In this document: piece by piece, positions 609-22,126 of the stretch
Layout of the letters: each line of letters begins with the position of its first letter
How positions within the stretch are numbered: position 1 is the first letter of the stretch
Virus record (IMG/VR): IMGVR_UViG_3300042502_002168
Coordinates: 1-36,811 of that record
Source: a virus
Length of the DNA stretch: 36,811 bases
Strand: one strand, 5' to 3'
Program-made: the position numbers and the translations under genes
Notes under the pieces: generated by a model
What the model was told of the DNA's origin: nothing
The model's database searches: none
The model's input: the letters and a program-made list of their open reading frames with translations, nothing else

Positions 609-1087
609 GCTACTCCAAACGCACCCTTGAAAACCTCGGTGGCCTCAACCGCAAAGCCCGCGCCAAGTTTGAAGCCTTCTTCGCCGCCGCCGCTCCCATC
701 TTCGAACGGCACGGAGTCACCTTTGAAGTCCTCAGCGGCCTCCGCTCCTACTCTCAGCAGGCCGCTCTCTACGCCCAAGGCCGCACCAAGCCCGGGGAAA
801 TCGTCACCAAAGCGCCCCCTGGCTCCAGCTGGCACAATTACGGCTTGGCGGTGGATCTGGGCCTGTTCAAGGGCGGCGTTTATCTGGACAAAAACAACCC
901 GCGGCTAGCTGACAAGGTATATGCGGAGCTGGGGGTGTTGGCAAAGTCGATGGAAATTGAGTGGGCTGGCTATTGGACGAGCTTTACGGAGACTCCCCAT
1001 TTCCAGCACCGTCCGGGGATTGCGTCGATTGCTGCTGCAAAGGCGAAACTGAAAGCCGTCGGCCTCGACGTCCAGAAGATGCTGTGA
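605..1087 (+). CDS. Endolysin, M15-type peptidoglycan peptidase (160 aa)
   Basis: A zinc peptidase of the VanY/L-alanyl-D-glutamate peptidase type that cuts peptide bridges of peptidoglycan at lysis. The SGLRSYSQQAALYAQGR block (44-60) and the SSWHNYGLAVDLG block (74-86) are the family signatures. Likely Zn ligands are His77, Asp84 and His132 (in ETPHFQ). At 160 residues it is a single catalytic domain with no obvious wall-binding domain or signal peptide, so it needs the holin. The start is GTG at 605, overlapping the previous stop. The GC-skew of the + strand flips inside this gene near base 850-900. Confidence 0.9.
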   Translation: MSYSKRTLENLGGLNRKARAKFEAFFAAAAPIFERHGVTFEVLSGLRSYSQQAALYAQGRTKPGEIVTKAPPGSSWHNYGLAVDLGLFKGGVYLDKNNPRLADKVYAELGVLAKSMEIEWAGYWTSFTETPHFQHRPGIASIAAAKAKLKAVGLDVQKML

Positions 1088-1173
1088 CCGTCCCGCCGCC
1101 CGTTTGCGCTCATTTGCGGTAGCTGCAAAATCGCAAAATGTAGCAGCCATGTATCAGTCCGCGGCCCAAAATA

Positions 1174-1209
1174 ACCCCTCCACCGGGGAATTTCTCGAAG
1201 TGGAGGGGT
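1174..1209 (-). terminator. Hairpin terminator, probably of the split host tRNA
   Basis: A perfect 10-bp stem (1174-1183 with 1200-1209) around a 16-nt loop. Read on the minus strand it begins 2 bases after the tRNA CCA end and is followed by TTATTTT, the layout of a tRNA gene and its Rho-independent terminator. The phage would thus bring a new tRNA 3' end together with a terminator when it integrates. It may also end late transcription on the + strand after the endolysin. Confidence 0.65.
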
Positions 1210-1211
1210 AA

Positions 1212-1246
1212 TGGTCGGGCTGGCGGGATTCGAACCCACGATTGGG
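1212..1246 (-). other. attP: Putative attP core: 3' end of a tRNA gene (probably tRNA-Pro)
   Basis: On the minus strand this reads a T stem GTGGG, T loop TTCGAAT, T stem CCCGC (1239-1223), then the 3' acceptor strand CAGCCCG (1222-1216), discriminator A and CCA (1212-1214). Only the 3' part is present: no matching anticodon arm or 5' acceptor strand follows, so it is not a functional tRNA. An acceptor 5' strand of CGGGCTG with discriminator A fits tRNA-Pro. It lies about 100 bp upstream of the integrase, the classical place of a tRNA-directed attP. Confidence 0.8.
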
Positions 1247-1343
1247 AAAGGAGTAATTGTGACGGGGTGGTGAAGGGGGAGACGGGTGTGGTTGCGGGTG
1301 GTGTGCGGTTGCGGATGTATCAGGGATGTATCAGGGGTGAGGG

Positions 1344-2603
1344 ATGGCATCGGTGCACAGACGGAAGGGGACGAAGAACTGGTTCGCGCTTTTCCTGCTG
1401 CCGGGAGGGAAGCGGTTCTTTCGTTCGACGGGGCTGGAGGACAAGGCGGCGGCGCAGAGGTTGGCGGATGAATGGGAGCGGCTGGCGCGGGGGCCGGTGC
1501 CCGGGTCGCTGGATCAGGCGCGGCGGGTGACGGCGGAGCTGGTGGACGGGCTGATGGGGAGTGTGGGGGTGGCGCGGATCACGTGCAGACAGTATGTGGA
1601 GCGCTGGCTGGAGGGGTTGAAAGGGACGGTGGCGGACTCGACCCTGGCGTTTTACCGCGGGGCGCTGGTGGCGTGGCTGAAGTGGCTGGGGGAGCGTGCG
1701 GATGAACCGCTGGACAGCATTCAGCATGAGGATGTGGTGGCGTGGCGGTTGGCGGAGTTAGGCAGGGTGCGGGCCAAGACGGCATCCCAGCGGACGAAGG
1801 CGCTGCGGGCAATGTTTGCGGAGGCGAAGGCGCTGGGTTTTGTGCATCGCGACCCCACCGCGGGTCTGCGGGCGCTGCGGGTGCGGCCGGTGGACAGGGA
1901 GGAGCGGGCCCGCCGGCCGTTCACGCGGAAAGAACTGGCAAGGGTGCTGGCGGCGGCGGAGGGAGACTGGGCGCTGGTGGTGCGGCTGGGTCTGGAAACG
2001 GGGCAGCGGCTGGGGGATCTGGTGCGCATGGATTGGCGGGATGTGGATGGTGACGCTGGCCTGTGGACGGTGAGGACGTCGAAGAAGGGGCGGCGGCTAG
2101 TTTTGCCGTTGTCTGCGGGGGTGCTGGCGGCGCTCAAGGAAAGGGCGGCATCGGCCGTGGGGACGGCGGTGTTCCCCACCATGGTGAGTCAGCTGACGGC
2201 GGCGGGGGGCGTGGGCACGCTCAGCAACCAATTCTCCATGCTTCTCTGGCAGCTGGGCCTGAGGCAGTACAGTCCGCATGACAGGATAGCCAAGGGGGGC
2301 AAAAAAGCGGAGCTGGTGGCGGCGGGGGCGGATCGGCGGGAACAGCAGGAGCTGAGCTTCCACAGTCTCCGGCACACGGCCCGGACGTGGCTGGAGGAAG
2401 CGGGGCAGCCGAAGGCCGTCATCGATGCGTTGATAGGACACAGCGGGGACACTGGCAAAATCTACACCACGGTGGGACTGGATGCGCTGCGGGCGGCGGC
2501 GGCGGTGCTGGGGGCGGTGAAATCTGTTGCCAGCGGCGGGGAGAATGTGGCAGCGTCAAAAAATGAAGGCAACCCTCAAACAACAGAAACCGGACAGGGA
2601 TGA
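1344..2603 (+). CDS. int: Tyrosine-type site-specific integrase (419 aa)
   Basis: A tyrosine recombinase that inserts the phage at, and excises it from, a host tRNA gene. Residues 1-60 resemble an arm-binding domain, about 75-165 a SAM-like core-binding domain, and about 190-385 the catalytic domain. The catalytic set is visible: Arg222 (ETGQRLGD), Lys247/248 in the beta hairpin, His340 and Arg343 (HSLRH), His366 (IGHSGD) and Tyr374 (KIYTT). Residues after 390 are a polar tail. It lies next to the attP core and is convergent with the minus-strand block, separated by a hairpin terminator. Confidence 0.95.
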   Translation: MASVHRRKGTKNWFALFLLPGGKRFFRSTGLEDKAAAQRLADEWERLARGPVPGSLDQARRVTAELVDGLMGSVGVARITCRQYVERWLEGLKGTVADSTLAFYRGALVAWLKWLGERADEPLDSIQHEDVVAWRLAELGRVRAKTASQRTKALRAMFAEAKALGFVHRDPTAGLRALRVRPVDREERARRPFTRKELARVLAAAEGDWALVVRLGLETGQRLGDLVRMDWRDVDGDAGLWTVRTSKKGRRLVLPLSAGVLAALKERAASAVGTAVFPTMVSQLTAAGGVGTLSNQFSMLLWQLGLRQYSPHDRIAKGGKKAELVAAGADRREQQELSFHSLRHTARTWLEEAGQPKAVIDALIGHSGDTGKIYTTVGLDALRAAAAVLGAVKSVASGGENVAASKNEGNPQTTETGQG

Positions 2604-2718
2604 AGTCATGGGGGCGGAGCTGGATCGGCTGGAGCAGCTGGCTATGGATCTGCTGACGGAGCTGCGGTGGATCCGCCGGGGTCTCCGCCGGAAAAGCAAA
2701 CGCCCCGTCTCCGGGTGA
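2563..2718 (+). CDS. Small basic protein overlapping the integrase end (51 aa)
   Basis: A 51-residue ORF starting at ATG 2563, in another frame than int and overlapping it by 41 bases. It has a helix ELDRLEQLAMDLLTELRWI followed by a strongly basic tail (RRGLRRKSKRP). The terminator hairpin begins inside its last codons. Size, charge and position would fit a recombination directionality factor or an int-linked regulator, but no excisionase signature is visible. It could also be a chance ORF. Confidence 0.45.
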   Translation: MKATLKQQKPDRDEVMGAELDRLEQLAMDLLTELRWIRRGLRRKSKRPVSG

Positions 2719-2753
2719 AGGAGCGGGGCGTCGGAGCCGGTGGGCTCCCGTTT
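2700..2753 (+). terminator. Terminator region after the integrase
   Basis: Two consecutive hairpins: ACGCCCCG (2700-2707) pairs with CGGGGCGT (2724-2731), and GGAGCC (2733-2738) pairs with GGCTCC (2743-2748) around GGTG, followed by CGTTT. It lies in the convergent gap between int and the minus-strand zinc-ribbon gene and could stop transcription from either side. The U-tract is weak. Confidence 0.6.
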
Positions 2754-2806
2754 GGGTATGAGCCATCGTGCGGGGAACAGCGTGGGCCGTTCTATCCGCT
2801 GGGGAT

Positions 2807-3019
2807 CTAGGCCGACGGCGGCGGGGTGTCAACGGGTGGAATCCGCGGGCGCCCGCGGCGGCCGGGTGGGTAGCAGGTGTTGCACTTCCGGGTGCCGTCC
2901 GATCGTTTAGAGCGGGTGGCGCTGCCGCAGGCTGGGCAGGCCCATGGCGCGTTGCCTTTGGCTTTGAGCCCGCGTGCGGCGCGTTTGGCCCGTGCGTGGA
3001 GTGCCTGGCGGGTGGGCAT
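2807..3019 (-). CDS. Small zinc-ribbon protein (70 aa)
   Basis: A 70-residue basic protein with a Cys4 zinc ribbon: Cys28-x2-Cys31 and Cys46-x2-Cys49, flanked by Arg/Lys-rich segments (residues 9-21 and 38-59, including GRRGRPRI, an AT-hook-like stretch). This points to nucleic-acid binding. Its start overlaps the stop of the upstream gene (ATGA at 3019), and it is the last gene of the minus-strand operon. The target is unknown. Confidence 0.75.
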   Translation of the reverse strand: MPTRQALHARAKRAARGLKAKGNAPWACPACGSATRSKRSDGTRKCNTCYPPGRRGRPRIPPVDTPPPSA

Positions 3020-3348
3020 CAGGACGGGCTGCTGTGCTGGAACCAGCGTGTGGTGGCGTATGGCAGGGCGTGGAGTTGCTGGCGAAACTCTGTCTCAAAG
3101 GTTTGTGCCAATGTAAGGAAGCCCCGATCCTCGCAGGCCGCAAAGAACTCGTCCCGGGTCACGGACTGGAAGATCATCTTGGGGACGCGTTCCAGTTCCA
3201 GCCGAGGGAAAATCTCGTAGCACGCGCAATGATAGTGCCCCACTTTTTTCTCGGTGCCGTGTGGCATGGCAGTGAGATAGAGCTGGGCCAGTTTGACGGC
3301 CATGGTCACCAGCCGGGGATCTGAAGCATCTGGGAGGAAGGGGTCCAT
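3019..3348 (-). CDS. Hypothetical protein of the minus-strand operon (109 aa)
   Basis: A 109-residue soluble protein with no recognised family. It contains a KKVGHYHCACYEIFPRLELER segment around residues 34-54 (His and two Cys close together) and a helical second half. It is transcribed with its neighbours from the promoter near 4200 and is coupled by a 3-base overlap to the zinc-ribbon gene downstream. It may be an accessory (superinfection or host-interaction) protein, a suggestion made only from its location beside int. Confidence 0.6.
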   Translation of the reverse strand: MDPFLPDASDPRLVTMAVKLAQLYLTAMPHGTEKKVGHYHCACYEIFPRLELERVPKMIFQSVTRDEFFAACEDRGFLTLAQTFETEFRQQLHALPYATTRWFQHSSPS

Positions 3349-3361
3349 GTTGTGAGGCTAA

Positions 3362-3571
3362 TCAAGGTTGGCGGTGGGATCCGTCAGCATCGACGTCGGC
3401 GTAGTAGGGGCAGTTGTTGGCGTCGATGAAAAGACGCTGGCCGGCGGCGTTGGTTTCCGGCAGAACGGTCTCGACGCTCACTACGGTATATCCTTTGACG
3501 TTGGGAGTGGTCGCTTGCGTCTTGCGAAGAGGTTGGCCGGTGGTGAGGTTGGAGAGGACGAATTTTTTCAT
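3362..3571 (-). CDS. Hypothetical small protein (69 aa)
   Basis: A 69-residue protein starting MKKFVLSNLTTGQPLRK. Its leader reads AACCCCAACCGACCCAGACC before the ATG, a variant of the repeated leader found before the next two genes of this operon, which supports a real start. Predicted beta strands dominate (GYTVVSVETVLP, QRLFIDANN). No function is recognised. Confidence 0.6.
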   Translation of the reverse strand: MKKFVLSNLTTGQPLRKTQATTPNVKGYTVVSVETVLPETNAAGQRLFIDANNCPYYADVDADGSHRQP

Positions 3572-3595
3572 GGTCTGGGTCGGTTGGGGTTGGGG

Positions 3596-3841
3596 TCAAA
3601 GGTCGGCGATATGCGGGGCGAGGATTTTGAAACCATCGACTGCTTCCCGGGCGGCTTGCATCAAATCAGGTTCGCGGGCCTCAAGACCGTTTCCGTCCTG
3701 CCAGTCGTATTCGGTGGCGTCGTCGTAAAAGTCGCGCCCGTTCCCCGCTGGCGTCTTGACGCTGACGCCGCCGCCGCTTCCGTCATTGGCGAGGATTTCG
3801 GTGCAGATGAATCTGTGTGCTGAGATTTCAATGGATTTCAT
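3596..3841 (-). CDS. Hypothetical small acidic protein (81 aa)
   Basis: An 81-residue acidic protein beginning MKSIEISAHRF, with a Gly/Asp-rich middle and a C-terminal helix (DLMQAAREAVDGFKIL). The start is supported by a conserved leader, ACAACCACAACCGCCCACTC, right before the ATG; the same leader, with single changes, precedes the gene at 3878-4135. Function unknown. Confidence 0.6.
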   Translation of the reverse strand: MKSIEISAHRFICTEILANDGSGGGVSVKTPAGNGRDFYDDATEYDWQDGNGLEAREPDLMQAAREAVDGFKILAPHIADL

Positions 3842-4160
3842 AGGAGTGGGCGGTTGTGGTTGTCTGTCGGGTAAATGTCAGGCGTCGGTCAGTGTCCAGC
3901 GGTACGTTTTCCCGCTCACTTCCACCTCTCCCTCCATCTCGTTGTCTGTCTCCGTAATGGCGTCCTCGATTGCCTCGTAAGCGCCATCTGCTAGGACGGC
4001 TGGGCAGTCGCGGATGCTGCCGGAGACGGTTTGCAAGCCGTCGGAGTTTTCCCCGATGGTCCAGTCGAACTTTCCGTCTCCGGCCCAGATGCCGTTTTCT
4101 GAAATGCTGATGTCGTAGGTGGTGGTGGTGCTCATAGGAGTGGTCGGTTGTGGTTGTGTG
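3842..4160 (-). repeat. Repeated A/C-rich 5' leader before minus-strand genes
   Basis: On the minus strand the bases just before the ATG codons at 4135 and 3841 are nearly identical: ACAACCACAACCG, then A or C, then CCACTCCT before ATG. A weaker copy (AACCCCAACCGACCC) precedes the ATG at 3571. None contains a Shine-Dalgarno sequence; CTCCT is in fact like the anti-SD itself. Confidence 0.6.
3878..4135 (-). CDS. Hypothetical small acidic beta-rich protein (85 aa)
   Basis: An 85-residue protein, first gene after a strong minus-strand promoter. It starts MSTTTTYDISISENG and shows alternating hydrophobic positions typical of beta strands (FDWTIGE, GKTYRWTLT) with an acidic helix between (AYEAIEDAITETDNEM). 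The SD-less leader ACAACCACAACCGACCACTC precedes the ATG. No family is recognised. Strong promoter and first position suggest it is made in the lysogen, perhaps with a protective role. Confidence 0.6.
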   Translation of the reverse strand: MSTTTTYDISISENGIWAGDGKFDWTIGENSDGLQTVSGSIRDCPAVLADGAYEAIEDAITETDNEMEGEVEVSGKTYRWTLTDA

Positions 4161-4183
4161 CTGCCGTGAGTGGCAACGGGGTC

Positions 4184-4211
4184 AGAATAAATCAGGGGTT
4201 GAGCTTGTCAA
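4184..4211 (-). promoter_or_regulatory. Sigma70-type promoter for the minus-strand small-gene operon
   Basis: On the minus strand, a perfect -35 TTGACA (4211-4206), a 16-bp spacer and a -10 TATTCT (4189-4184). It lies in an AT-rich island and would start RNA about 40 bases before the gene beginning at 4135. It is the best promoter match I found in the window and probably acts in the prophage. Confidence 0.75.
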
Positions 4212-4253
4212 CGTATTATCTGGAATTTTTTTTAAGTGAGGGAAAAGAGGGGA

Positions 4254-4676
4254 TCAGGCGATGCGGCTGAGGAGTCGCCAGTGCTGGGTGGTGGGGTTGT
4301 GGAGGTAGTGGTCGCTGGGGACGAGTTGGCCGGTGGTGAGGTAGTGGAGGACATCGGCAAGGGGCCAAGTGCCGAGGATCTCCCCATTCCGGCGGATGGT
4401 GAGCTGGTCCGGGACGTCGGCGAGGCTGCTGGTGGGGATGGCGGCGGGGGTGGGGGCGCGGGTGGCGGCAAGGATGGCGGCGGTCTGGCGCTCCAGAGCC
4501 TCGGCCGCGGCGCGTTCTGCGGAGGCGCGGTTGCCGAGGACGACGGCAATGAGGACGCCGAGGGGGCCGAAGAGGAGGCCGAGAACGAATCCGTTCCCCC
4601 GCTGGCCGGGGCCTGCAAGGGTGGAGCCGATGAGGGCGCAGAGAATCCAGACGAAGAGGATGGCGATAGGGTCCAT
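4254..4676 (-). CDS. Membrane protein with C-terminal GYF_2-like domain (140 aa)
   Basis: A predicted membrane protein: two hydrophobic segments near residues 4-21 and 30-47 (the second GLLFGPLGVLIAVVLG), an Ala/Glu-rich linker, and a C-terminal domain (about 91-137) with the DUF4339/GYF_2 pattern: LTIRRNGEILGTWPLADVL, then TGQLVPSDHYL and a W near the end. GYF_2 domains are common in bacterial membrane proteins and are thought to bind peptides. I chose ATG at 4676; a TTG at 4715 would add 13 residues before the hydrophobic segment. The role may be superinfection exclusion, which is inference. The + strand stays G-rich here although the gene is on the minus strand. Confidence 0.7.
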   Translation of the reverse strand: MDPIAILFVWILCALIGSTLAGPGQRGNGFVLGLLFGPLGVLIAVVLGNRASAERAAAEALERQTAAILAATRAPTPAAIPTSSLADVPDQLTIRRNGEILGTWPLADVLHYLTTGQLVPSDHYLHNPTTQHWRLLSRIA

Positions 4677-4779
4677 GGTGGGGCGATGGTACGCGAAACA
4701 CGCGGGAGGCGTCAAGGAGAGCGCGTGGGCGTGTGTGAGGACGGGCGGGAACGTGTGCGGGCGGTAGTGTGCGGCCCCG

Positions 4780-4818
4780 AAAAAACCCCGCTCCGGTATC
4801 TCCGGGCGGGGCTTTTTT
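4780..4818. terminator. Bidirectional Rho-independent terminator
   Basis: Six A residues (4780-4785), CCCCGC (4786-4791) paired with GCGGGG (4806-4811), an inner CCGG/CCGG pair, and six T residues (4813-4818). The symmetry gives a terminator on both strands. On the minus strand it follows the gene ending at 4836 and separates the repressor unit from the downstream GYF_2 gene. Confidence 0.85.
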
Positions 4819-4835
4819 ATGGGTGGGGGATGTGG

Positions 4836-5066
4836 TTACGGGTGGGAGACTGGTGGCGGCAGTTCTGCGGCACACATGGCTTCAATATCGGCTTTCATCC
4901 GGGCAAGGGTGGCCACCATTTCCGGGTACGGATCTGGCAGAATGTTCGTGATTTGGGAACTTTCTTGGGAACGGGAAGAGAGCTTGGGTGGTTCCGGCGG
5001 CGGCAATTCCAGCCGGTAGCATTGGATGGAACCGGAAGCGGAGGATGGTGTGGGTTCTGGATTCAT
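4836..5066 (-). CDS. Hypothetical proline/serine-rich small protein (76 aa)
   Basis: A 76-residue protein downstream of the repressor-like gene and ahead of the bidirectional terminator. The first 45 residues are rich in Pro, Ser and Glu and look disordered, followed by a short helix (EMVATLARMKADIEAMCAAEL). It forms a two-gene unit with 5082-5450. The family is not recognised, and a partner or modulator of the repressor is possible. Confidence 0.55.
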   Translation of the reverse strand: MNPEPTPSSASGSIQCYRLELPPPEPPKLSSRSQESSQITNILPDPYPEMVATLARMKADIEAMCAAELPPPVSHP

Positions 5067-5081
5067 GAGGATGGCGGGGTG

Positions 5082-5450
5082 TCAGTCTTCTGCGGGAGGA
5101 GTAGTTTCCTCGGCAACCTTGGACTGTTGAGTATCAGGTGCTGTGTAGACGATGGGTTTTTTGTGAGTAGCTCCGCGGATCAGCTCAAGCAGTAGCTCTT
5201 CGACGCTGATGTTCCGGGACGCGGCGACGCGGGAAAGGTTGATCAAGTCGGGCAACATAAGGGGCAACGTCAAGGTGCCGAGGGCCTGCGCAATCAGATT
5301 ATCCATGAGGAGGGCAACTGTGGCAGGGATTGGTTGGCTGTCTGCCCATCGGCTGACGGAGGCAGGGGTGGTGCCCAAGCGGACGGCGAGTTCGCGGCCA
5401 TTGAGCCGCAGGATGTGACGCTGGGCGTGGCTGAATTCTGAGTTGGTCAT
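5082..5450 (-). CDS. XRE-type HTH plus ribbon-helix-helix protein, candidate repressor (122 aa)
   Basis: A likely DNA-binding regulator, divergent from the early operon, in the place of a CI-type repressor. Residues about 12-58 form a helix-turn-helix (GRELAVRLGTTPASVSRWAD). Residues about 60-95 have an RHH pattern: strand LTLPLMLP, helix DLINLSRVAASRN, then ISVEELLLELIRG. The tail is polar. The last block matches SVEELVVGLIRNL in the divergent protein at 5545-5781. There is no peptidase domain, so induction would not be by LexA-like self-cleavage. I chose ATG at 5450; TTG at 5459 is an alternative. Confidence 0.75.
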   Translation of the reverse strand: MTNSEFSHAQRHILRLNGRELAVRLGTTPASVSRWADSQPIPATVALLMDNLIAQALGTLTLPLMLPDLINLSRVAASRNISVEELLLELIRGATHKKPIVYTAPDTQQSKVAEETTPPAED

Positions 5451-5470
5451 GAGAGACAAATGCCCTAAAA

Positions 5471-5543
5471 ATTACAGAGTGCAACTTTTTGCTTGCGCGG
5501 TTACGGAGAGGAAGTATTCTGGCGGAACATTACACAGAGTAAT
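5471..5543. promoter_or_regulatory. Divergent control region with TTAC...GAG repeats and candidate promoter
   Basis: The 94 bp between the two divergent regulators hold three related sites: ATTACAGAGTGCAA at 5471, GTTACGGAGAGGAA at 5500 and the perfect 15-bp palindrome ATTACACAGAGTAAT at 5529-5543, which ends one base before the ATG of the RHH gene. A candidate + promoter is TTGCGC (5493-5498), 16-bp spacer, TATTCT (5515-5520), with the same -10 and spacing as the promoter at 4184-4211. The third site would lie near the RNA start, as expected of an operator. Confidence 0.5.
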
Positions 5544-5544
5544 T

Positions 5545-5781
5545 ATGAACGCTCCTGCCACTCCCGCCGACCTGCAATCTCCCCCGCTGCCACAAGCGAC
5601 AGCGACCATCACGCTCCGTATCGCCCTCAGTCCGGCACTGTCGGCGCAGGAACTGGTGGGCCTGCATCAGTCGGCTGAACAGGCCGGCCAGTCTGTGGAG
5701 GAGTTGGTGGTGGGTCTGATCCGCAATCTCCCACAGGTGCAGATGCCCTCTGCGGAAGCTCAACCAGCCGTCGCCGCGTGA
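5545..5781 (+). CDS. Stand-alone ribbon-helix-helix regulator (78 aa)
   Basis: The first gene of the early operon. After a Pro-rich start, residues about 19-65 give an RHH (Arc/MetJ-like) pattern: strand TITLRIALSP, helix LSAQELVGLHQSAEQAG, then QSVEELVVGLIRNLPQ. The last segment is shared with the C-terminal half of the divergent XRE-RHH protein, so the two may compete for the same operators or form mixed dimers, in a Cro-like role. It overlaps the next gene by GTGA (5778-5781). Confidence 0.7.
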   Translation: MNAPATPADLQSPPLPQATATITLRIALSPALSAQELVGLHQSAEQAGQSVEELVVGLIRNLPQVQMPSAEAQPAVAA

Positions 5782-6146
5782 GTGACATCGCCGAAAAACT
5801 GGACAGGCTGGAGGCCGGGCTGGCCGTGATCGGCGAGCGGATCGACCGGCTGGCGGCGATGTTCGAGGAGGTGCGGTGCGCGGCGGAGACGGCGAAGCGG
5901 CGGGATCTGGAGTTTCAGGCGTGTTTGGCGGTAGGGCGGGCGAGGGAGGAGGCGATCGAGGAGCGGCTGGCTGAGGTGGGGACGGCTGTGATCCTGACAA
6001 ACGGCGAGAAGCAGAAACTGGTGAAGAACGCTCTGGGCCTCCAGAGCGAGAAGGCGCTGCAAGGCCTGATCCCCCGCGGGGCCATCTACTTCCCGAAGAA
6101 TGACCGGCCGGGCGCGCCGGCGGCCGGGGCGGAAGGAATCCGCTGA
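5778..6146 (+). CDS. Coiled-coil early protein (122 aa)
   Basis: A 122-residue protein starting at GTG 5778, coupled to the RHH gene by a 4-base overlap. Residues 1-70 are strongly helical with heptad-like spacing (IAEKLDRLEAGLAVIGERIDR), suggesting a coiled coil; the C-terminal third is more polar and ends in a Gly/Ala-rich tail. It is probably a regulatory or structural adaptor, and no family is recognised. Confidence 0.65.
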   Translation: MSDIAEKLDRLEAGLAVIGERIDRLAAMFEEVRCAAETAKRRDLEFQACLAVGRAREEAIEERLAEVGTAVILTNGEKQKLVKNALGLQSEKALQGLIPRGAIYFPKNDRPGAPAAGAEGIR

Positions 6147-6154
6147 CACCCGAC

Positions 6155-6170
6155 AAGGCACCGGTGCCTT
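6155..6170. promoter_or_regulatory. Perfect 16-bp palindrome
   Basis: AAGGCACCGGTGCCTT is a perfect 16-bp inverted repeat in the 51-bp gap between the coiled-coil gene and the HTH gene at 6198. It could be an operator for the HTH protein or an RNA hairpin that tunes its expression. No T-tract follows, so a terminator is unlikely. Confidence 0.5.
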
Positions 6171-6197
6171 CCCAATCCCAAAAACGTCCCCTTCCCC

Positions 6198-6557
6198 ATG
6201 TCCCGAAAAGTCCCCCTCACTCCCCCGACTGAAGCCACGTCCCCCGGCGCCCGTGTGCGTTGGCTGCGGCGCTCTGTCTCTGACTGCGGCAGGAAAAAGC
6301 TCTGGGACCAGGCGCATCTGGCGGGATTGGCCGGGGTGTCCCGCAGAACGGTGGTCCTCATGGAACAGGACAGCTACGAGGTGAAGGAGCGGCAGTGGGA
6401 GGCGGTGGTGCGGGCGTTGGGCGTGACGATGGAACTGCTGCACATGCCGCTGCGGCAGTGGGTGGCGGCGGTGAAGCGCCTGAAGTGTCCCGCGACAGGA
6501 TTCACGGGGGAGGAAGCGGCGAGGTGGGCGGGGCCGCAGATGCACCGGAGTGTGTGA
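6198..6557 (+). CDS. HTH transcriptional regulator (119 aa)
   Basis: An XRE/Cro-like DNA-binding protein. Residues about 17-75 hold the HTH: GARVRWLRRSVSDC, then AHLAGLAGVSRRTVVLMEQ with the recognition helix at about 48-57. A C-terminal extension contains PLRQWVAAV. Residues 17-92 align without gaps to residues 108-183 of the Zn/HTH protein at 12357-12962, with about one third identical by eye, so the two are paralogous domains. It is a probable second regulator of the early operon. Confidence 0.75.
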   Translation: MSRKVPLTPPTEATSPGARVRWLRRSVSDCGRKKLWDQAHLAGLAGVSRRTVVLMEQDSYEVKERQWEAVVRALGVTMELLHMPLRQWVAAVKRLKCPATGFTGEEAARWAGPQMHRSV

Positions 6558-6564
6558 ACCATTT

Positions 6565-6656
6565 CCGCGGGGCCTAGCCGTGACTGCCGCTGCCGCGGCG
6601 GGCCGGGGGTTTCTAACTACACGGGGTCGGAAATTCACCCCGAGGGGGCCCCGCGG
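6565..6656 (+). ncRNA. Candidate structured RNA (three-way junction) in the early operon
   Basis: In the 160-bp gap between 6557 and 6718, CCGCGGGGCC (6565-6574) pairs perfectly with GGCCCCGCGG (6647-6656). Inside are two hairpins: CTGCCGC (6584-6590) with GCGGCGG (6595-6601) around TGCC, and CGGGGT (6622-6627) with ACCCCG (6637-6642) around a 9-nt loop. The fold could be a leader RNA, attenuator or small RNA for the downstream genes. High GC raises the chance of accidental pairing. Confidence 0.4.
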
Positions 6657-6717
6657 ATTCCATCTCTTGAACTCATGCGAACCGGGCGCGTGCCCACAAC
6701 CTCTAACGAAACGACCC

Positions 6718-6882
6718 ATGATGAAACGAGAAACCAAACACTGTGCCGAACGGCTCCGAGGGCCGGGCGAGCGGATAACCCTCCTCCTGCTGATCCTCCT
6801 CTCCGGCTGGCTGGGAGGCGCGGCCGTCTATCAAACCATCCAGTCCGCGAAAGCTGTCTGGGAATACTACAGCCCCAACTGA
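6718..6882 (+). CDS. Small single-span membrane protein (54 aa)
   Basis: A 54-residue protein with a basic N terminus (MMKRETKHCAERLRG) and one membrane span at about 20-42 (ITLLLLILLSGWLGGAAV), then a short polar tail. The topology is probably N-in. The start is ATG 6718 or 6721. It follows the structured gap and is 3 bases from the next gene. Early small membrane proteins of phages often act on the host envelope or exclude rivals; that is inference. Confidence 0.65.
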   Translation: MMKRETKHCAERLRGPGERITLLLLILLSGWLGGAAVYQTIQSAKAVWEYYSPN

Positions 6883-6885
6883 CCC

Positions 6886-8071: not shown

Positions 8072-8090
8072 CTGAAACCCATGAACTCTG

Positions 8091-8982: not shown

Positions 8983-9044
8983 ATCGTCAGGAAAAGCGTG
9001 CGGCGAGGGCGGCGGCGATGTATCGGGAAGGGGGTGGGGAGTGA
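8979..9044 (+). CDS. Very short basic ORF, possible relay peptide (21 aa)
   Basis: GTG at 8979 overlaps the previous stop, and TGA at 9042-9044 overlaps the GTG (9041) of the next gene, so the 22 codons exactly bridge two genes. The peptide is basic and Ala-rich and ends REGGGE, encoded by the G-rich junction element that recurs three more times in this operon. It may exist mainly to carry ribosomes on to the next gene. Confidence 0.45.
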   Translation: MNRQEKRAARAAAMYREGGGE

Positions 9045-10143: not shown

Positions 10144-10179
10144 CTGATTTTTCTGAAAACCATAACAAGACCCATACCC

Positions 10180-10965: not shown

Positions 10966-11016
10966 AAAAAACTCATCCCGGCAGCGGGTAACTAACACAA
11001 ACCAAGACACAACGAT

Positions 11017-12360: not shown

Positions 12361-12962
12361 GCATGGTACTGGAACGGCGGAAGCAGTGCCCGAACTGCCT
12401 TCGGTTCTTCAAGAAGCCTGAGCGGATGACGCTGCGGAAGTGGGAGGCGCAGGAGCTGTGCAGCCTGACGTGTCTGGGGGACTCCCGGCGGAAAAAGGCT
12501 GGGGGCTGGAGGACGCAGACGAAGGAGTGTGAGGGATGTCAGCAGGTGTTCCGGCCGACGGCGGAGATGCGGAAGCGGGACTGGGAGCAGAACCGGACAT
12601 GCTCCTCCTACTGTGCCATAGCGGTAGCCACGGGGCGGCGGGTGGTGCCGATGGTGCCGGAGGAACAGGTGGAGCCGGGGCAACGGCTGATGTTCCTGCG
12701 GCGGTGTGTGCGGGCCGCCGGTGGGAAGCTGCCGTGGACGCGGCAGATGCTGGCGGCAGACACCGGGATCAGTGAGGGGACGATCATGAAGATCGAGGAG
12801 GGGCGGACGGTGATGGTGGGGGATTGGCAGGAAAAGGTGTGCGCGGTGCTCAAGGTGCCGACGTGGCTCCTAACGGTGCCTGTGCGGCGTTGGGTGCAGG
12901 TGGTGGTGGGGTCGGGGCTTACGGCGACGCATGCGGTGGTGGTGAAAGGGGGTGGGGAGTGA
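12357..12962 (+). CDS. Protein with two tandem zinc fingers and an XRE-like HTH (201 aa)
   Basis: Two repeats of a Cys4 finger with identical spacing come first: Cys11-x2-Cys14-x20-Cys35-x3-Cys39 and Cys58-x2-Cys61-x20-Cys82-x3-Cys86, each with F and W at equal places. A helix-turn-helix domain (about 108-183) follows: GQRLMFLRRCV, then MLAADTGISEGTIMKIEEG and PVRRWVQVV. The HTH part is paralogous to the regulator at 6198-6557. It is probably a DNA-binding regulator or replication factor. It overlaps the clamp gene by ATGA and the next gene by GTGA. Confidence 0.78.
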   Translation: MSMVLERRKQCPNCLRFFKKPERMTLRKWEAQELCSLTCLGDSRRKKAGGWRTQTKECEGCQQVFRPTAEMRKRDWEQNRTCSSYCAIAVATGRRVVPMVPEEQVEPGQRLMFLRRCVRAAGGKLPWTRQMLAADTGISEGTIMKIEEGRTVMVGDWQEKVCAVLKVPTWLLTVPVRRWVQVVVGSGLTATHAVVVKGGGE

Positions 12963-13549
12963 AGCCTGACGACATCGAGTTCAAGGTGTGCGAGCGGCTG
13001 TGGGCCATGTACGGCGAAAGGGCGCGGCCTCTCATCGCTGACATCGAGCAGCGTCAGGCCTTCGGGCTAGCGAAATACCCGACACGGCTTGCGGAGAACC
13101 CTGCCCCGCTGAAAGCAAGGCTGAGGCACCTGCTGGAGGAACTGCTGGACGGGGCGGTGTATACGGAGTGGTGCGCAACGGGGCGTTCTTACATGCCTGT
13201 AGTGCGAGAGTATTGGGCCATGCAGCAGACGCTGCTTGCGATGGCATTCGGGATAAAGGACCACATCCCGGACGAGGAACCGACGGCGAAGCCGCGGGAG
13301 AAGGAGGAGGTGGTGGGGAGAACGGCGCAGGAAATCGTGGACCAGACGAATGAGCTGGCCCGTGAGCTGTATCGTCTGCGGGGATATGTGAGGCCGCGGG
13401 GCTATCGGTTCGACAAGGCAACGCATCCGCAGGAGGTGGAGGCCTGGAACGGGGCATGCGAGGCGCAGCTGTTGCTGACGCAGACGGATGTGGATGATGC
13501 GTTGCAGGAACTGGATGGGGAACTGGATGAGGAAGGGGGTGAGGAATGA
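12959..13549 (+). CDS. MazG-like NTP pyrophosphohydrolase-type protein (196 aa)
   Basis: A helical protein resembling phage MazG-like/all-alpha NTP pyrophosphatases in residues about 20-65: QRQAFGLAKYPTRLAEN, then LRHLLEELLDGAVYTEW, the usual EExxDxxxY helix. The rest is acidic and helical (VVGRTAQEIVDQTNELARELY), ending DEEGGEE. Such enzymes trim nucleotide pools or alarmones. Start GTG 12959 follows the repeated junction AAAGGGGGTGGGGAGTGA. Family assignment is by motif only, and the full set of metal-binding acids was not confirmed. Confidence 0.6.
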   Translation: MKPDDIEFKVCERLWAMYGERARPLIADIEQRQAFGLAKYPTRLAENPAPLKARLRHLLEELLDGAVYTEWCATGRSYMPVVREYWAMQQTLLAMAFGIKDHIPDEEPTAKPREKEEVVGRTAQEIVDQTNELARELYRLRGYVRPRGYRFDKATHPQEVEAWNGACEAQLLLTQTDVDDALQELDGELDEEGGEE

Positions 13550-13830
13550 GAACAGAGCATGATCGAGCGGCGAGGTGGTTTCATGCATGGATGCAGGTGT
13601 TGATGCAGCGCAGTCGAAAGGACTGCATTCGTTGGCAAAAACGGAGCATCTGGGCGATGCACCGGTTAGTGAGGGCCCGCCGCGCTGAAGCGGAGAGGGG
13701 GCCACGGTGCAGTTTTTGCGAATTCCCAGGTCATGATGAGAGTGAGGAAGCGTGTGCGGTCAGAACAAGGTCGGTGGGAAGATGGGAGCAGTGCGGGCGA
13801 ATTTGGCGTGGAGAGGGGGCTGGCGAATGA
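13546..13830 (+). CDS. Small basic Cys-containing protein (94 aa)
   Basis: A 94-residue basic, Trp-rich protein (AARWFHAWMQVLMQ, CIRWQKRSIWAMHRL) with CSFCEFPGH at about 55-63 and a Cys14 residues beyond His63, a possible CxxC...H...C zinc knuckle. It starts at ATG 13546 after the identical G-rich junction used by the clamp gene, and its stop overlaps the primase ATG at 13827. It is probably nucleic-acid binding, and its place right before the primase suggests a replication role. Confidence 0.6.
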   Translation: MRTEHDRAARWFHAWMQVLMQRSRKDCIRWQKRSIWAMHRLVRARRAEAERGPRCSFCEFPGHDESEEACAVRTRSVGRWEQCGRIWRGEGAGE

Positions 13831-15023
13831 GCCGCGGGCACCTGCCAGCGTGGTCGGCGGCGGAGGCGCGGGGGATCATGGAACAGATCCTCGGACGGAC
13901 GCTGGATGCGAATGGGGCGACGGTGTGCCCGGGGGATGCCGCGCACACGACGAGTCACGGCAAGCCGGACTTCAAACTCTTCACGGTGGGAAAGGTGCCG
14001 TATGCGCATTGCTTCCACACGAATTGTTATGACCGGGTGATGGAGGTGAACAGGGAGATGTGGCGGAGGCTGTTTGGGAAGGTGCGTGGTGGGGAGGACC
14101 GGGCGTTTCAGGAAAGCGGGATGCGGCGGGTGAAGGAGGTCATCAAGAAGCGTCAGGACTTCTCGGCGCTGGCGTTGGCATCTGAGCAATTGTCCGGGCT
14201 GGTGGTGGGGAGGAGGTGGTTGCGGGAGCGGAGTCCCATCGATCCGGAGGGGGTGTCGGCGACGGGTTTTCTCCAGGCGCTCTACGGCTGCGGGGAGAAG
14301 GTGCTGGTGTTCGAGCGGATGATGAGTCAGGGGGAGTATGGGTTTGTGAGGACGTCGGCGGGTGGGCATTGGGTGGAGCTGGGGCGGGACCGGCGGGAGG
14401 CGCATGTGGTGCTGGAGGGGCAGGAGGTGCCGGGGCCGTTGAGGGCTGGGAAGGAGGGGATCTGGTACCTCGCGCAACCGGTGGATGGGCATTGGTATCT
14501 GGACCCGGACCTCATCGATCGGCAAACGGGGCTGCCGAAGTGGAGCCGGAGGAGCAAGCTGGCGGTGACGGACTGGAGGTTTATGGTGTTGGAATCGGAT
14601 TCGGCGAGGGTGGACCATTGGCTGAATTTCATCGTGCAGCTGGGGCTGAGGATTGTGGCGCTGTACACTTCGGGCGGGAGGTCGGTGCATGCGTTGGTGA
14701 GGGTGAATGCGGGGAGTCGGGCGCAGTGGGATGAGATGTGCCGGATGATGCAGCCGATTCTTTCCCTGCTGGGGGCGGACCCGGCAGCGATGTCATCGGT
14801 AAGGCTGACGCGGCTGCCGGGGTGCATTCGCCGGGGGAAGATGCGTCAGGAACTTTACAGGGATCCGTCAACTGGGGCGGAGGAAAAGCGGTCGGTCTAT
14901 CATCGTTTCGAACAACCTCTCATGCAGCGTCTACTCTATCTGAACCCGGGCGCGGAGGCGGTCCCGATCCTGAATCTGCAACCGGTGCGGAGCATCGTGG
15001 ACGAGGAGGCGGCAGATGCTTAA
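13827..15023 (+). CDS. Primase with zinc finger and AEP-type catalytic core (398 aa)
   Basis: Probable primase of the archaeo-eukaryotic (AEP/PrimPol) type, making primers for phage replication. A zinc-binding N terminus is visible (Cys34, His40, then HCFHTNC with Cys62, His64 and Cys67). The core has FMVLESDS (253-259; Glu256 and Asp258 as likely metal ligands), YTSGGRSVHALVRV (280-293; His288) and SSVRLTRLPG (323-332), the three AEP motifs. I chose ATG 13827 because it overlaps the previous stop as ATGA; 13752 is an alternative. The helicase is a separate downstream gene overlapping by 8 bases. Confidence 0.8.
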   Translation: MSRGHLPAWSAAEARGIMEQILGRTLDANGATVCPGDAAHTTSHGKPDFKLFTVGKVPYAHCFHTNCYDRVMEVNREMWRRLFGKVRGGEDRAFQESGMRRVKEVIKKRQDFSALALASEQLSGLVVGRRWLRERSPIDPEGVSATGFLQALYGCGEKVLVFERMMSQGEYGFVRTSAGGHWVELGRDRREAHVVLEGQEVPGPLRAGKEGIWYLAQPVDGHWYLDPDLIDRQTGLPKWSRRSKLAVTDWRFMVLESDSARVDHWLNFIVQLGLRIVALYTSGGRSVHALVRVNAGSRAQWDEMCRMMQPILSLLGADPAAMSSVRLTRLPGCIRRGKMRQELYRDPSTGAEEKRSVYHRFEQPLMQRLLYLNPGAEAVPILNLQPVRSIVDEEAADA

Positions 15024-16899
15024 CGAGGGTGCGGGCGGGGAGGTGCTGCCGGAGCAGATGCGGGAGCTGCAAGCGGCTCTGGCTCCATTGGCGGAGCGTC
15101 ACAATCTGCCGGCTCCAAGGTCGGATCTGGGGCCGGAGGTGTACATCGGGCCGGGGAGTGATCTGAGGGAGATCGCGATGAAGCTGGGGGAGATTTGTCG
15201 AGACCCTTCGAAGGGGTTGTTTTTCTCTGATCCGGAGATCGTGACGATCGATCGGGAGAAGGGTTCGACGGAGATCATGACGCCGGACAGGTTCCGGAGT
15301 TGGATCGCGGACTGGGCGCTCATCGGGGCGCGTTATGAGAAGAGCACGGGGCGGGTGGAGAAGTGTACGCTAGGCTGTGAGATGGCGCGGGGGGTGCTCG
15401 CGAGTGACCACTTCCGGCGGAAGATCCCGCGGCTGGCGGCGGTGAACGTCATCAAGCAGCCGGTGAAGCGGCGTGGGGGGAAGGTGGAGCTGCTGCCGGT
15501 GGGGTATGACGCGGAATCGCAGGTGTACACGCTGGAGGGTGGGCTGGACTATCCGGAGGACATGAGCATCGATGACGCCATCGTGTTCTTCAGGCGGCTG
15601 TACACGACGTTCCCATGGGGGGACGAGGGGCGGAGTCTGGGGGTGCACATGGCGGCGGGCCTGACGTTGTATTGTCAGCATCTGCTGCCGACGGGGACGC
15701 TGACGCCGATGTTTGTGTATAACGCAAATCAGGGGGGGTCGGGGAAGAGTTTGTTGGCGACGATCTGGCTGTGGGCGATGTATGGGTCGGCCGAGACGAT
15801 GAATCTGGTGGAGGGGCATGATGAGATGAAGAAGGAGCTGGACACGGCGGCGCAGGCGATGACGCCTTACGTCTTTTTTGATGACCAGGACGGTTGGTTG
15901 GAGAATCGGCTGCTGAACTCGTGGCTGACGTCGCGGGTTTGGGCGGGGCGGGTATTGGGGACGCCGCGGAAGTTCAGCATGCCTAAGCGGGCGGTGACGA
16001 TCCTGACGGGGAATAATGTGACGCTGAGTCCGTTCCTGAGTCGGCGGAGTGTGCTGTCGGATTTGTTCGCGAAGCAGCAGTTGGTGGACAGGGTATTGCC
16101 GGCGGACACGATCCACATGGACGATGCGTGGATGGCGGAGGAGGCGAATCGGAAGGCGGTGTTGGGGGCGTTGTGGGCGCTGGTCCGGTGGTCGTGTGTG
16201 CCGCGGGAGGAGCTGGTGGTGGTGGATGGGAAGGAGGTGTCGCAGGTGGTGCAGGGTCGGCTATTGGGCGACGGGAAGCGGGCGCGGCCCACGGGTAAGC
16301 CGCTGGATTCGTTCGAGACGTGGAGCAAGATCATTCCACAGATCGTGGTGGATGGGATGTTCGGGGATCCGCTGGAGCGGCCGAATCTGCCGGATGCGGG
16401 AGACAAGAGCGGTCAGGAGATGCGGCAGCTGATGCGGGCGGTGATCAAGGAGCATCTGTGGAAGGAGGTGCCGCAGATGGAGCCGGATGGTGAGGGGGGA
16501 TTTGTGGCGAGCGGGGAGATGGTGCTGGTGCCGATACAGGCCGCACGGGTGGAGCTGAGCCAGATGCTGAGGCTGGCGAGGCGGCTGGGGTTGTTCTCGG
16601 AGATTCTGGAAACGACGGATCTGGTGCTGGTGGACCTGCAACGTGGGGGCAAGGGCAAGGGGTTCTGGAGGGAGAAGTATGCGGAGGGGCTGGGCTGGGA
16701 GGAGCGGCTGCCGGAGACGGACGAGGAGCGGCGGGCACAGGCTGAGAGCTGGTATGACAAGAGCATGGCGAACAAGCTGGCGGCCCGGGTGAAGGGGGTG
16801 CAGGCGCAGTACTTCACCGGGGACGATGGGGCGGTCTATCAGCTGGGGGATCGGGTGGCGGGCCGGGTGTCTTCGTTCATGATCCGGCGGGTGAGCTGA
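15016..16899 (+). CDS. Replicative helicase/ATPase, SF3-D5-like (627 aa)
   Basis: Probable replicative helicase. Walker A is NQGGSGKSLLAT with Lys244, Walker B is YVFFDDQDG with Asp289-Asp290, and a TGNN sensor (331-334) is followed by a conserved SRRSVLSDLF block with a likely arginine finger (Arg343/344). This order is that of phage SF3/D5-type helicases that work with AEP primases. Residues 1-190 form an N-terminal domain and 430-627 a long C-terminal region with winged-helix character. It overlaps the primase by 8 bases and is the last early gene before a terminator. Confidence 0.8.
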   Translation: MLNEGAGGEVLPEQMRELQAALAPLAERHNLPAPRSDLGPEVYIGPGSDLREIAMKLGEICRDPSKGLFFSDPEIVTIDREKGSTEIMTPDRFRSWIADWALIGARYEKSTGRVEKCTLGCEMARGVLASDHFRRKIPRLAAVNVIKQPVKRRGGKVELLPVGYDAESQVYTLEGGLDYPEDMSIDDAIVFFRRLYTTFPWGDEGRSLGVHMAAGLTLYCQHLLPTGTLTPMFVYNANQGGSGKSLLATIWLWAMYGSAETMNLVEGHDEMKKELDTAAQAMTPYVFFDDQDGWLENRLLNSWLTSRVWAGRVLGTPRKFSMPKRAVTILTGNNVTLSPFLSRRSVLSDLFAKQQLVDRVLPADTIHMDDAWMAEEANRKAVLGALWALVRWSCVPREELVVVDGKEVSQVVQGRLLGDGKRARPTGKPLDSFETWSKIIPQIVVDGMFGDPLERPNLPDAGDKSGQEMRQLMRAVIKEHLWKEVPQMEPDGEGGFVASGEMVLVPIQAARVELSQMLRLARRLGLFSEILETTDLVLVDLQRGGKGKGFWREKYAEGLGWEERLPETDEERRAQAESWYDKSMANKLAARVKGVQAQYFTGDDGAVYQLGDRVAGRVSSFMIRRVS

Positions 16900-16921
16900 G
16901 GCTGGTGAGGTGCGAACCAGA

Positions 16922-16966
16922 GGGCGGGAATCTGCTGGGCTGAGGCCTGCGGGTTCCCGCCCTTTT
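16922..16966 (+). terminator. Rho-independent terminator of the early operon
   Basis: GGGCGGGAA (16922-16930) pairs perfectly with TTCCCGCCC (16954-16962), followed by TTTT (16963-16966). It stands 22 bases after the helicase stop and separates early from late transcription. Confidence 0.88.
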
Positions 16967-17490
16967 CGCGTGGGGCTGGGGGTGGTGGCGTGGGCCTGCT
17001 GGGTGCTCGCCCGTGCCGCGCTGCCCCGCGCCCCTTCCCCGCATCCCCTGTCGTTTTTGTTGCGCGGGGTTCGCACCTTATGCGGTTTTCGGGGGCGGAA
17101 GAGGGGGTAAAGGCTCCCTTCGGTCGCTGGGCGGGGGCCATTGGCTGGGGTGAGGTTCGCTGGATTCGCGGCGGTTCGCGGTCCATGGCTTCTGCAAGTG
17201 GTTGATTCTAAAGGCTAATGTTCAAGGTGAGAACCTTTCGAAACGTTCTCCTACTTTGATGCTTACCTCATTTCCGGGGTAAGGGGCGCATAGTGGGTGC
17301 GGAGGGTCCGCGGGGACTGCTTCGGCCCGGTGTCGCGCATGTCGCGGAATGGGTCGATTTTCTGGGGGGTAAGGAATCTTTTTCTAGCCAAAGTGCCGTT
17401 GCGAGTTGCCCGAAGGCCGCAAACGACGGGCGCGCCGGAATCTGCGTTTTTTCTTGTCGTTTTTGTCCGTTCCGGGGTTTGACGCCGGGG
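16967..17490. other. Non-coding early/late border region
   Basis: About 520 bp without a convincing gene. It contains the early terminator's flank, a GC-rich stretch, a 22-bp near-palindrome at 17229-17250, a CTTACC/GGTAAG inverted repeat (17262-17267 with 17278-17283), T-rich runs near 17445-17465 and a TTTGACGCC element at 17478. An open frame in phase with terS extends back to 17293, but its composition does not look coding. In lambda-like phages cos lies exactly here, upstream of the small terminase gene. Confidence 0.6.
17229..17250. other. 22-bp near-perfect palindrome, candidate cosN or operator
   Basis: GAGAAC (17229-17234) and GTTCTC (17245-17250) enclose C, the 8-bp palindrome TTTCGAAA (17236-17243) and C. 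Only the single C/C pair breaks the symmetry. It is 240 bp upstream of the likely terS start, where lambda-type phages carry cosN, itself a 22-bp partly symmetric site. A late-operon operator is the main alternative. Confidence 0.5.
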
Positions 17491-17494
17491 GTGG
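17478..17494 (+). repeat. TTTGACRCC element, copy 1 (before terS)
   Basis: TTTGACGCCGGGGGTGG. The last bases include the likely GTG start (17491) of terS. Related 17-mers stand before the genes at 20301, 23077 and 28533. Confidence 0.55.
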
Positions 17495-18243
17495 GGGCTG
17501 TGGGAGACCCTTCTGAGTTCCAGCTGGCCGCCACGCCGCCCCGCCGGGGAACGGCGGCGGTGGCGCTGCTGTATGCGCCGACGGAATCGGGTGACATCCT
17601 GCGGCGGCTGCAACGATGGAAGCGGGCGGGAGCCGAAGCGGGAAAAACGGCGCCCCTGGGAGATCCGGTGGCAATGGTGGAGTGGTACGCGGAGATGCGG
17701 CGGGGCGGGCATTTCAAACAGGTTTGCCCGGACATCCTCCTCGCCGCCGCGGCGCGACACAGTCGCCCGCCTGCGGCAGCGGAATCGGCCCCGGCTGCGC
17801 CCCCCGTGGCTCCGGATCCAGTTCCCGCTCCATCGCCGCCCCCAGCGGCATCCCCGCCGCCCGCGGCGAATGTGGCGCTCCCGGCGGAGGATCTGACACC
17901 CAAGCGTCGGCTGGAGCGGCTGGAGGAGGAGGAAGCGAGGCTTCATGGGCGCTACCTCGAAGTCTTGGCAAAGAACGGCACGGACGCCGAGCTGGACGTG
18001 CACCGGGCCCGGTGGTCGGACATGTCCGCCCTTGTCGTCCAGACCCGGCAGCGGCTGGAAAAGTCCAAGGACCTCCTCGACCCCGCCGAGGTCAACTCCG
18101 CCCTCCCCGCCGTCCTCTCCGCCCTCATGCAGGCCGTGGTCAAAGAATTGTCCTTCGAGTTCCCCGGCGAAAAAGTCATCGCCGCCGCCAAACGCGCATG
18201 GGAACGCGCCCCGGCCAACGTCGCCCAGCTCCTCGCGACATGA
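17491..18243 (+). CDS. terS: Terminase small subunit, probable (250 aa)
   Basis: Assigned mainly from position directly before the GpA-type large subunit and from its build: an N-terminal helical region about 24-80 (TAAVALLYAPTESGDILRRL, then VAMVEWYAEMRRGGHF), a Pro/Ala-rich linker (about 93-128), a coiled coil with LTPKRRLERLEEEEARLHGR, and a C-terminal helical part. Small terminases recognise packaging sites and form rings. The start is uncertain: GTG 17491 or 17500 fit; an in-phase ATG... form at 17293 would add 66 residues of poor composition. The GC skew flips inside this gene. It overlaps terL by ATGA (18240-18243). Confidence 0.65.
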   Translation: MGAVGDPSEFQLAATPPRRGTAAVALLYAPTESGDILRRLQRWKRAGAEAGKTAPLGDPVAMVEWYAEMRRGGHFKQVCPDILLAAAARHSRPPAAAESAPAAPPVAPDPVPAPSPPPAASPPPAANVALPAEDLTPKRRLERLEEEEARLHGRYLEVLAKNGTDAELDVHRARWSDMSALVVQTRQRLEKSKDLLDPAEVNSALPAVLSALMQAVVKELSFEFPGEKVIAAAKRAWERAPANVAQLLAT

Positions 18244-20294: not shown

Positions 20295-20300
20295 ACAGCG

Positions 20301-22123: not shown

Positions 22124-22126
22124 TCC

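Follow-up and report, generated by a model that had tools for sequence, protein, structure and literature searches.

The window, by which we mean the whole stretch of 36,811 nucleotides analysed here, carries two arms of opposite G/C imbalance: on the + strand the early arm, which runs from the attachment site attP to the terminase small subunit gene terS, is rich in G, and the late arm, which runs from terS back to attP, is rich in C. The reading that best fits the strand dependence of this imbalance, its maintenance, its two boundaries and its dependence on genomic context is that the two arms are copied in opposite directions, strand-specific mutation giving them opposite imbalances; we hold this reading with moderate confidence, and we infer that replication is the cause of the imbalance.

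The phage and its genes

The window is an IMG/VR virus record of a soil phage. Its ends are identical over 127 bp, giving a closed circle with a unit of 36,684 bp. It is a complete temperate cos phage of the lambda type, with a lambda-like terminase large subunit (TerL), a putative cos beside terS and an integrase with its attP; the gene order is endolysin, integrase, a minus-strand lysogeny-type block, early replication genes, terS, TerL, portal, protease, capsid and tail. The host is probably a verrucomicrobium, given the distant matches of TerL and of the helicase-like protein in Akkermansia phage Moulinsart and the presence of the att sequence in tRNA-Pro(GGG); TerL-based searches of bacterial genomes for prophages returned none. 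Neither an O-like initiator gene nor an O/P or Red system was recognised in the window, and no exonuclease/annealing pair among the scanned early genes. The main features are listed here, the two changes in the sign of the skew being called flip 1 and flip 2.

1..127: end repeat, identical to 36685-36811
605..1087, + strand: endolysin, M15 peptidase, the last gene ahead of flip 1 (phrog_6523, E=1.3e-24; PF13539, E=2.7e-11)
1190..17950: early arm, + strand G-rich (skew +0.66 at four-fold sites)
1344..2603, + strand: tyrosine integrase (phrog_1, E=2.4e-51; PF00589, E=9.2e-19)
3019..5450, - strand: lysogeny-type block of six genes, all C-ending on the coding strand, the intergenic DNA being G-rich on the + strand
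5082..5450, - strand: repressor-like HTH protein (phrog_409, E=9e-4), with minus-strand orthologs in the relatives G003, G006 and G010
11017..12360, + strand: phage DNA polymerase III beta clamp (phrog_947, E=7.8e-35; PF02767; TIGR00663, E=2.2e-28, below its cutoff)
13827..15023, + strand: primase-like protein (phrog_2597, E=2.5e-15, scored on the longer frame 13752-15023)
15016..16899, + strand: P-loop replicative helicase-like protein, related to a protein of phage Moulinsart (Walker A GGSGKS, Walker B YVFFDD; phrog_10537, of unknown function, E=4e-18)
17491..18243, + strand: terS (start inferred), with a zone of mixed skew and flip 2
17950..36684 and onward through 1-1190: late arm, + strand C-rich (skew -0.40 at four-fold sites)
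18240..20282, + strand: TerL, lambda-like family (phrog_15, E=4.8e-49)
27230..33876, + strand: late-arm patch of weak skew, more recently exchanged with phages like G016

Strand dependence of the skew

On raw counts, the cumulative skew of the circle has a single minimum (at 841) and a single maximum (at 17709), as the earlier note had led one to expect; the counts quoted there are exact (35 G and 9 C at 14341-14400, 12 and 27 at 19321-19380, 32 and 8 at 4261-4320), and so is its division of the circle into arms of 46:54. After removal of the mean, the cumulative skew covers a range of 2573, while 500 shuffles of the bases reach at most 416 and none of 5000 shuffles of 1-kb blocks attains the range observed.

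At four-fold sites the skew amounts to +0.655 in the + genes of the early arm (n=2040 sites; 18 of 20 genes positive) and, read on the + strand, to +0.608 in the minus genes of the same arm (n=255; positive in all six), and it is -0.408 in the + genes of the late arm (n=2972; negative in all 22); all eight four-fold codon families shift. At two-fold sites, early + genes have a C/(C+T) of 0.52 and a G/(G+A) of 0.80, early minus genes 0.82 and 0.50, and late + genes 0.78 and 0.56, so that the minus-strand lysogeny genes share the codon usage of the late genes and differ from their early neighbours. Noncoding DNA has a skew of +0.28 within the block of minus genes (n=677) and of -0.38 to -0.70 in the spacers of the late arm; its G-rich strand is also slightly T-rich, which would be expected if C changed to T more often on that strand. 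Four-fold sites of both early classes and noncoding DNA thus agree that the skew tracks the DNA strand and not transcription, as had been proposed. An asymmetry coupled to transcription was rejected: the arms have opposite skew although the reading direction is rightward in both, and the minus genes leave the skew unchanged. The comparison of arm by strand covers early + genes, early minus genes and late + genes, no genuine minus-strand gene having been found in the late arm; in relatives, the late-arm minus "genes" of the first calls turned out to be antisense frames and were discarded.

Two parts of the original description need qualification. The minus-strand gene at 4254-4676, chosen there as the example, is G-rich on the + strand as stated but is weak evidence when taken alone, its ortholog in the relative G016, which lies on the + strand, being also C-ending (-0.59); the strand argument is for this reason carried by the other minus genes and by intergenic DNA. 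The late arm is C-rich overall but unevenly so, the skew being weak at 27.2-33.9 kb and, on raw counts, slightly positive at 30.5-32.5 kb.

The skew in related phages and its two boundaries

The skew is actively maintained and is not a relic. Five relatives with TerL 66-68% identical to that of the window (G003, G006, G007, G009 and G004) show the same polarity and the same boundaries, and one of them, G006, is an independently closed circle; a weaker version of the pattern is seen in G010, whose TerL is about 28-32% identical. In the five, identity to the window at four-fold sites scarcely exceeds that of random pairing (for G003, 0.52 against 0.505 in the early arm, 0.454 against 0.416 in the late arm), the figures for relatives being approximate, as their genes come from a simple composition-based caller and some regions are uncalled. 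Since synonymous sites are saturated and both flips nevertheless persist, the skew must have been renewed after these phages parted.

In four closer relatives it is weak or missing. In G013-G016, TerL is 83-84% identical in amino acids to that of the window and many late genes are 80-92% identical, and yet the skew of TerL is +0.27 to +0.37 in these genomes against -0.67 in the window, most of their other late genes having a skew near zero or much weaker than in the window. No homolog of the integrase or the helicase of the window was found in the records of G013-G016, of which G013-G015 are incomplete contigs with their early regions outside; G016, the sole one with a readable early region, has other replication genes, among them an AAA_25 ATPase and a ResIII-type helicase, and a weak skew pattern whose maximum comes after TerL. 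These phages are mosaic: relatives swap early modules, and the late patch has been exchanged recently.

From G016 to the window, the shared four-fold sites of the genes at 18-27 kb changed from G to C and from C to G in the proportions 112:13 (TerL), 39:6, 33:9, 20:4, 21:1 and 16:0, with the exception of the capsid gene at 23752-24957 (60% identical; 21:25), and at 27-34 kb the two kinds of change are about balanced. Identity to G016 at four-fold sites is mostly 0.43-0.73 at 27-34 kb, against 0.31-0.61 for those genes at 18-27 kb that are over 80% identical. The one-sided changes, together with the balanced patch, imply that the skew belongs to the genomic context and accumulates with time; the weak skew at 27-34 kb is then explained by a recent exchange of this patch, on which the skew is not yet imposed.

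The boundaries lie next to the following elements.

1139..1157, + strand: putative integrase arm sites of the P arm, ATGTAGCAG/ATGTATCAG, predicted from the sequence and with a counterpart in G009
1174..1209: hairpin terminator adjoining the att core, kept in relatives
1212..1240, - strand: attP core, the 3' end of tRNA-Pro, an identical 29-mer in relatives; the neutral-site flip 1 falls 15-30 bp left of it
1313..1336, + strand: putative integrase arm sites of the P' arm, tandem GGATGTATCAG
16908..17180: iteron-like region, GGTTCGC x4 and AGGTNYG x3, the repeats flanking AT-rich DNA after the helicase gene; candidate origin or crr-like element
17404..17415, + strand: putative cos of 12 bases, AGTTGCCCGAAG; contig G014 begins exactly there

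Both flips had been assigned to genes, endolysin and terS; this is correct for flip 2, but flip 1 shifts from 841 on raw counts to 1183-1197 in the fit to neutral sites, that is, into attP and out of the endolysin gene. The C-rich and G-rich arms of the hairpin sharpen this fit, and the safe placement of flip 1 is between the endolysin and integrase genes. The step is abrupt in four phages, from -0.37 to -0.64 in the lysis genes to +0.64 to +0.79 in the first 600 bases of the integrase gene. The att layout before the integrase is the same in G003, G006 and G009, G010 begins within it, and the same att 29-mer recurs in the host-type contig G011, within an intact tRNA-Pro(GGG) that neighbours an argC-like gene. 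Neither a DnaA box nor an iteron was found at attP, where att elements fill the intergenic region.

Flip 2, fitted to neutral sites at 17922-18075 within terS, is a mixed zone of roughly 0.8 kb just inside cos; in five phages terS has a skew of +0.01 to +0.12, between the end of the helicase gene (+0.38 to +0.85) and the start of TerL (-0.32 to -0.66). G003 and G009 begin at a cos variant, AGTTTCCCGACC, which also forms the last 12 bases of G003. In four phages, with approximate circle lengths for G003 and G009, the early arm occupies 39-46% of the circle, flip 2 remaining fixed in terS throughout. The equal arms and antipodal terminus that two replichores would be expected to have are not what is seen; as the arm fraction varies and flip 2 is fixed, forks meeting freely do not fit and a fixed end is needed, which might be provided by cos, by a barrier, or by attP in an integrated prophage.

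Replication, rival explanations and known systems

If the two arms are frequently copied in opposite directions, strand-specific mutation would gradually build the opposite imbalance in each. The bidirectional replication proposed in the earlier note is upheld to the extent that opposite fork directions in the arms fit the data; its assignment of origin and terminus is weaker, the terminus not being antipodal. By the general bacterial rule, presumed to hold for the window's host too, the leading strand is G- and T-rich. Forks moving from the attP side to the cos/terS side in both arms, a weaker step of the argument, would make the G- and T-rich strand the leading one as in bacteria, and the abrupt flip at attP is origin-like, the blurred flip in terS terminus-like. 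An origin near attP is therefore favoured by polarity and by the sharpness of the flip at the place originally proposed, 0.85-1.3 kb; against it stand the lack of any origin-like sequence there and the presence of iterons at the other flip. From such sequence features we would place the origin near attP tentatively, with slightly less than even confidence, and we regard an origin within the iterons at 16.9-17.2 kb as rather unlikely, the remaining probability going to another cause or geometry.

In four relatives, about 280 bp right after the helicase gene contain 7-8 copies of AGGTNYG, where 0.2-0.3 are expected, on either side of an AT-rich core; the carriers are G003, G006, G007 and G008/G009, the window and G010 having variant motifs at the same place. 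This is the only repeat cluster of iteron type that was found, and it sits at the skew maximum, opposite to where leading-strand logic would put an origin. A 31-bp triple repeat behind the helicase gene of G003 was also considered as an iteron and set aside, as it is not conserved in G006. Bidirectional replication could start at this cluster, its forks either running out across the attP ends, as they might in a prophage replicating in situ, or meeting at attP. In favour of this possibility are the position of the repeats in the carriers just named, on both sides of the AT-rich core that directly follows the helicase gene, and the same position of SaPI origins (PMC7581432); with replication in situ, moreover, no terminus would be needed for the boundary to coincide exactly with attP. 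The polarity, however, would be opposite to the bacterial rule, since iterons acting as the origin imply a C-rich leading strand, and would require an exposed leading-strand template; the flip lies 0.8-1.4 kb to the right of the iterons, the terS zone being mixed and without a sharp step; and in P4 the iterons that closely follow the helicase gene, alpha, bear the annotation crr, the origin lying about 4.7 kb away. The full combination, a start at the iterons beside cos with a C-rich leading strand and with attP made an exact boundary by prophage replication in situ, appears quite unlikely on the sequence features available; if true, it would invert the bacterial GC-skew rule, and the genome would preserve a record of prophage replication that precedes excision.

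Explanations other than fork direction fare worse. Codon selection by gene class, under which early genes would favour G-ending codons and the late and lysogeny genes the C-ending codons of the host, is very unlikely: the lysogeny minus genes and the late genes do share C-ending codons, and the G016 ortholog of 4254-4676 is C-ending although it lies on the + strand, but the strand rule extends to the noncoding DNA of both arms, the late genes shared with G013-G016 are not C-ending there, and in G003/G009 the integrase and the + genes within the lysogeny region are G-ending. If 5'-3' resection proceeded inward from the cos ends during concatemer formation and left the 3' strands exposed, the polarity should come out right in either arm and change at cos; such resection predicts, however, a decay away from cos, whereas the skew has its full strength to the left and to the right of attP, and a boundary in the middle of the linear genome, from which the actual one is 2-5 kb off, and no exonuclease/annealing pair of the kind it needs was recognised among the scanned early genes, so that we consider it highly improbable. 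That the halves are modules of different ancestry, or the product of a chimeric assembly, with the skew as a relic, is hardly credible. The mosaicism described above would suit it, and the earlier note had named different ancestry of the halves as what would overturn its proposal; yet skew and boundaries persist in several relatives despite saturated synonymous sites, the independently closed circle of G006 shows the same pattern, and the late genes of relatives with swapped early modules (G013-G016) are without skew instead of having kept it.

Two modes of copying, uniformly by rolling circle or passively as a prophage, were likewise rejected, as either predicts a single sign over the whole phage, unlike the window. 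A single sign is found in prophage G017 (helicase 35% identical), where the + strand is G-rich throughout and flanking host-like genes have about +0.06 to +0.35 on the same strand; this uniform skew fits passive copying within the host chromosome, with rolling-circle copying as an alternative. The contrast suggests that the lineage of the window has not been copied mainly as a passive prophage. The phage-plasmid phase that had been put forward is not borne out, the window having an integrase, a tRNA-Pro attP and cos but no recognised plasmid genes: when the main genes were scanned against protein families, none was identified as serving plasmid replication or partition, the nearest being a weak ParB-like match of 10180-10965 (E=0.004), and a rare episomal state may exist alongside integration.

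As for known origins, no arm effect was seen around those of ICP1, lambda and P4, which were run as positive controls; the early-infection origin of ICP1 has been located near 60 kb by read depth (PMC7145576). Skew is thus no general mark of origins in phages, and leading-strand logic is no proven rule for them. Skew may instead record the copying mode of a lineage, two arms where a phage mainly uses its own forks and a uniform skew, as in G017, where it is mainly copied by the host as a prophage.

With lambda-type phages the window shares the phrog_15 terminase, the putative 12-base cos by terS, the integrase and att site, the minus-strand lysogeny genes and the order of early and then late genes; lambda differs in that no arm effect surrounds its origin, which lies in the O gene, and the window in having no recognised O/P or Red genes and in its attP, the 3' end of tRNA-Pro. 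In the helicase-iteron replicons of P4 and SaPI, too, the helicase gene is immediately followed by a cluster of repeats, SaPI origins lying directly downstream of rep helicase genes (PMC7581432), but their repeat sequence differs from that of the candidate iterons, and P4 has no GC skew. Akkermansia phage Moulinsart (ON453896) provides the best match to the helicase among described phages (28%, E=4e-32) and a distant match to TerL (22%); it has no comparable two-arm skew, and its integrase sits between the helicase and terminase genes. The closest parallel in pattern is offered by huge phages, about 30% of whose genomes show a GC skew of bidirectional type, read as replication from origin to terminus (Al-Shayeb 2020; PMC7162821), with a cumulative plot of two arms as in the window. 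Those genomes exceed 200 kb and the reading is drawn from skew alone, whereas the window is an integrating phage of about 36.7 kb whose arms are coded mostly on one strand, which makes strand and transcription separable. In most phages the directions of genes and of replication are confounded, so that GC skew indicates the origin poorly; in the window, arms coded on the same strand, minus genes inside one arm and close relatives whose counterparts of the late genes are weakly skewed or not at all allow the contribution of replication to the asymmetry to be told apart from that of coding.

Genes and exchanged segments in the two arms

Among the genes of the early, G-rich arm of the window is one for a sliding clamp, which has relatives in three phages with the same arms (G003, G006 and G009) and in the more distant G010:
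11017-12360, phage-encoded DNA polymerase III beta clamp

The minus-strand gene at 4254-4676 has an ortholog, 84% identical in nucleotides, on the + strand of G016 (10054-10476), a relative sharing the late genes; it is a movable gene, occurring in both orientations. In the late arm, the patch 27230-33876, where the skew is weak and synonymous identity to G016 is higher, is a recent exchange, the base composition of which is still unadjusted. In G014 (L042-L043), also a relative through the late genes, an additional gene (reversed coordinates 3276-4532) separates TerL from the next small gene; it is found in G015 too, and in these phages it sits near the turning point of their weak skew.

Repeats past the helicase gene and a prophage record

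Past the helicase gene of G003 (L012; reversed coordinates 36269-36361) lies an exact 31-bp tandem repeat in three copies, GGCAGTAGGGACGGCTACTTCCCGCGTAGCG, which is not present in the close relative G006; a related motif is carried by G010. The 52-kb record G017 (L053-L055) comprises a prophage and host DNA flanks with a dnaE-like gene; no skew reversal is seen at its terminase region, and its + strand is G-rich over the whole record (about +0.45 at four-fold synonymous sites).

The att region and its tRNA gene

Two features concern integration:
within 1174-1240, att region hairpin, just beyond the tRNA-Pro 3' end
L025:2937-3013, intact tRNA-Pro(GGG) beside an argC-like gene, host contig G011

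On the latter contig (L030-L031), a different partial prophage adjoins the intact tRNA gene. In G003 and G006 the att hairpin ends in a T-run, which points to the tRNA's far side; in the integrated state, the hairpin could serve as terminator for two transcripts, the late one and that of the rebuilt tRNA. The tRNA-Pro(GGG) gene beside the argC-like gene appears to be an integration site common to different prophages.
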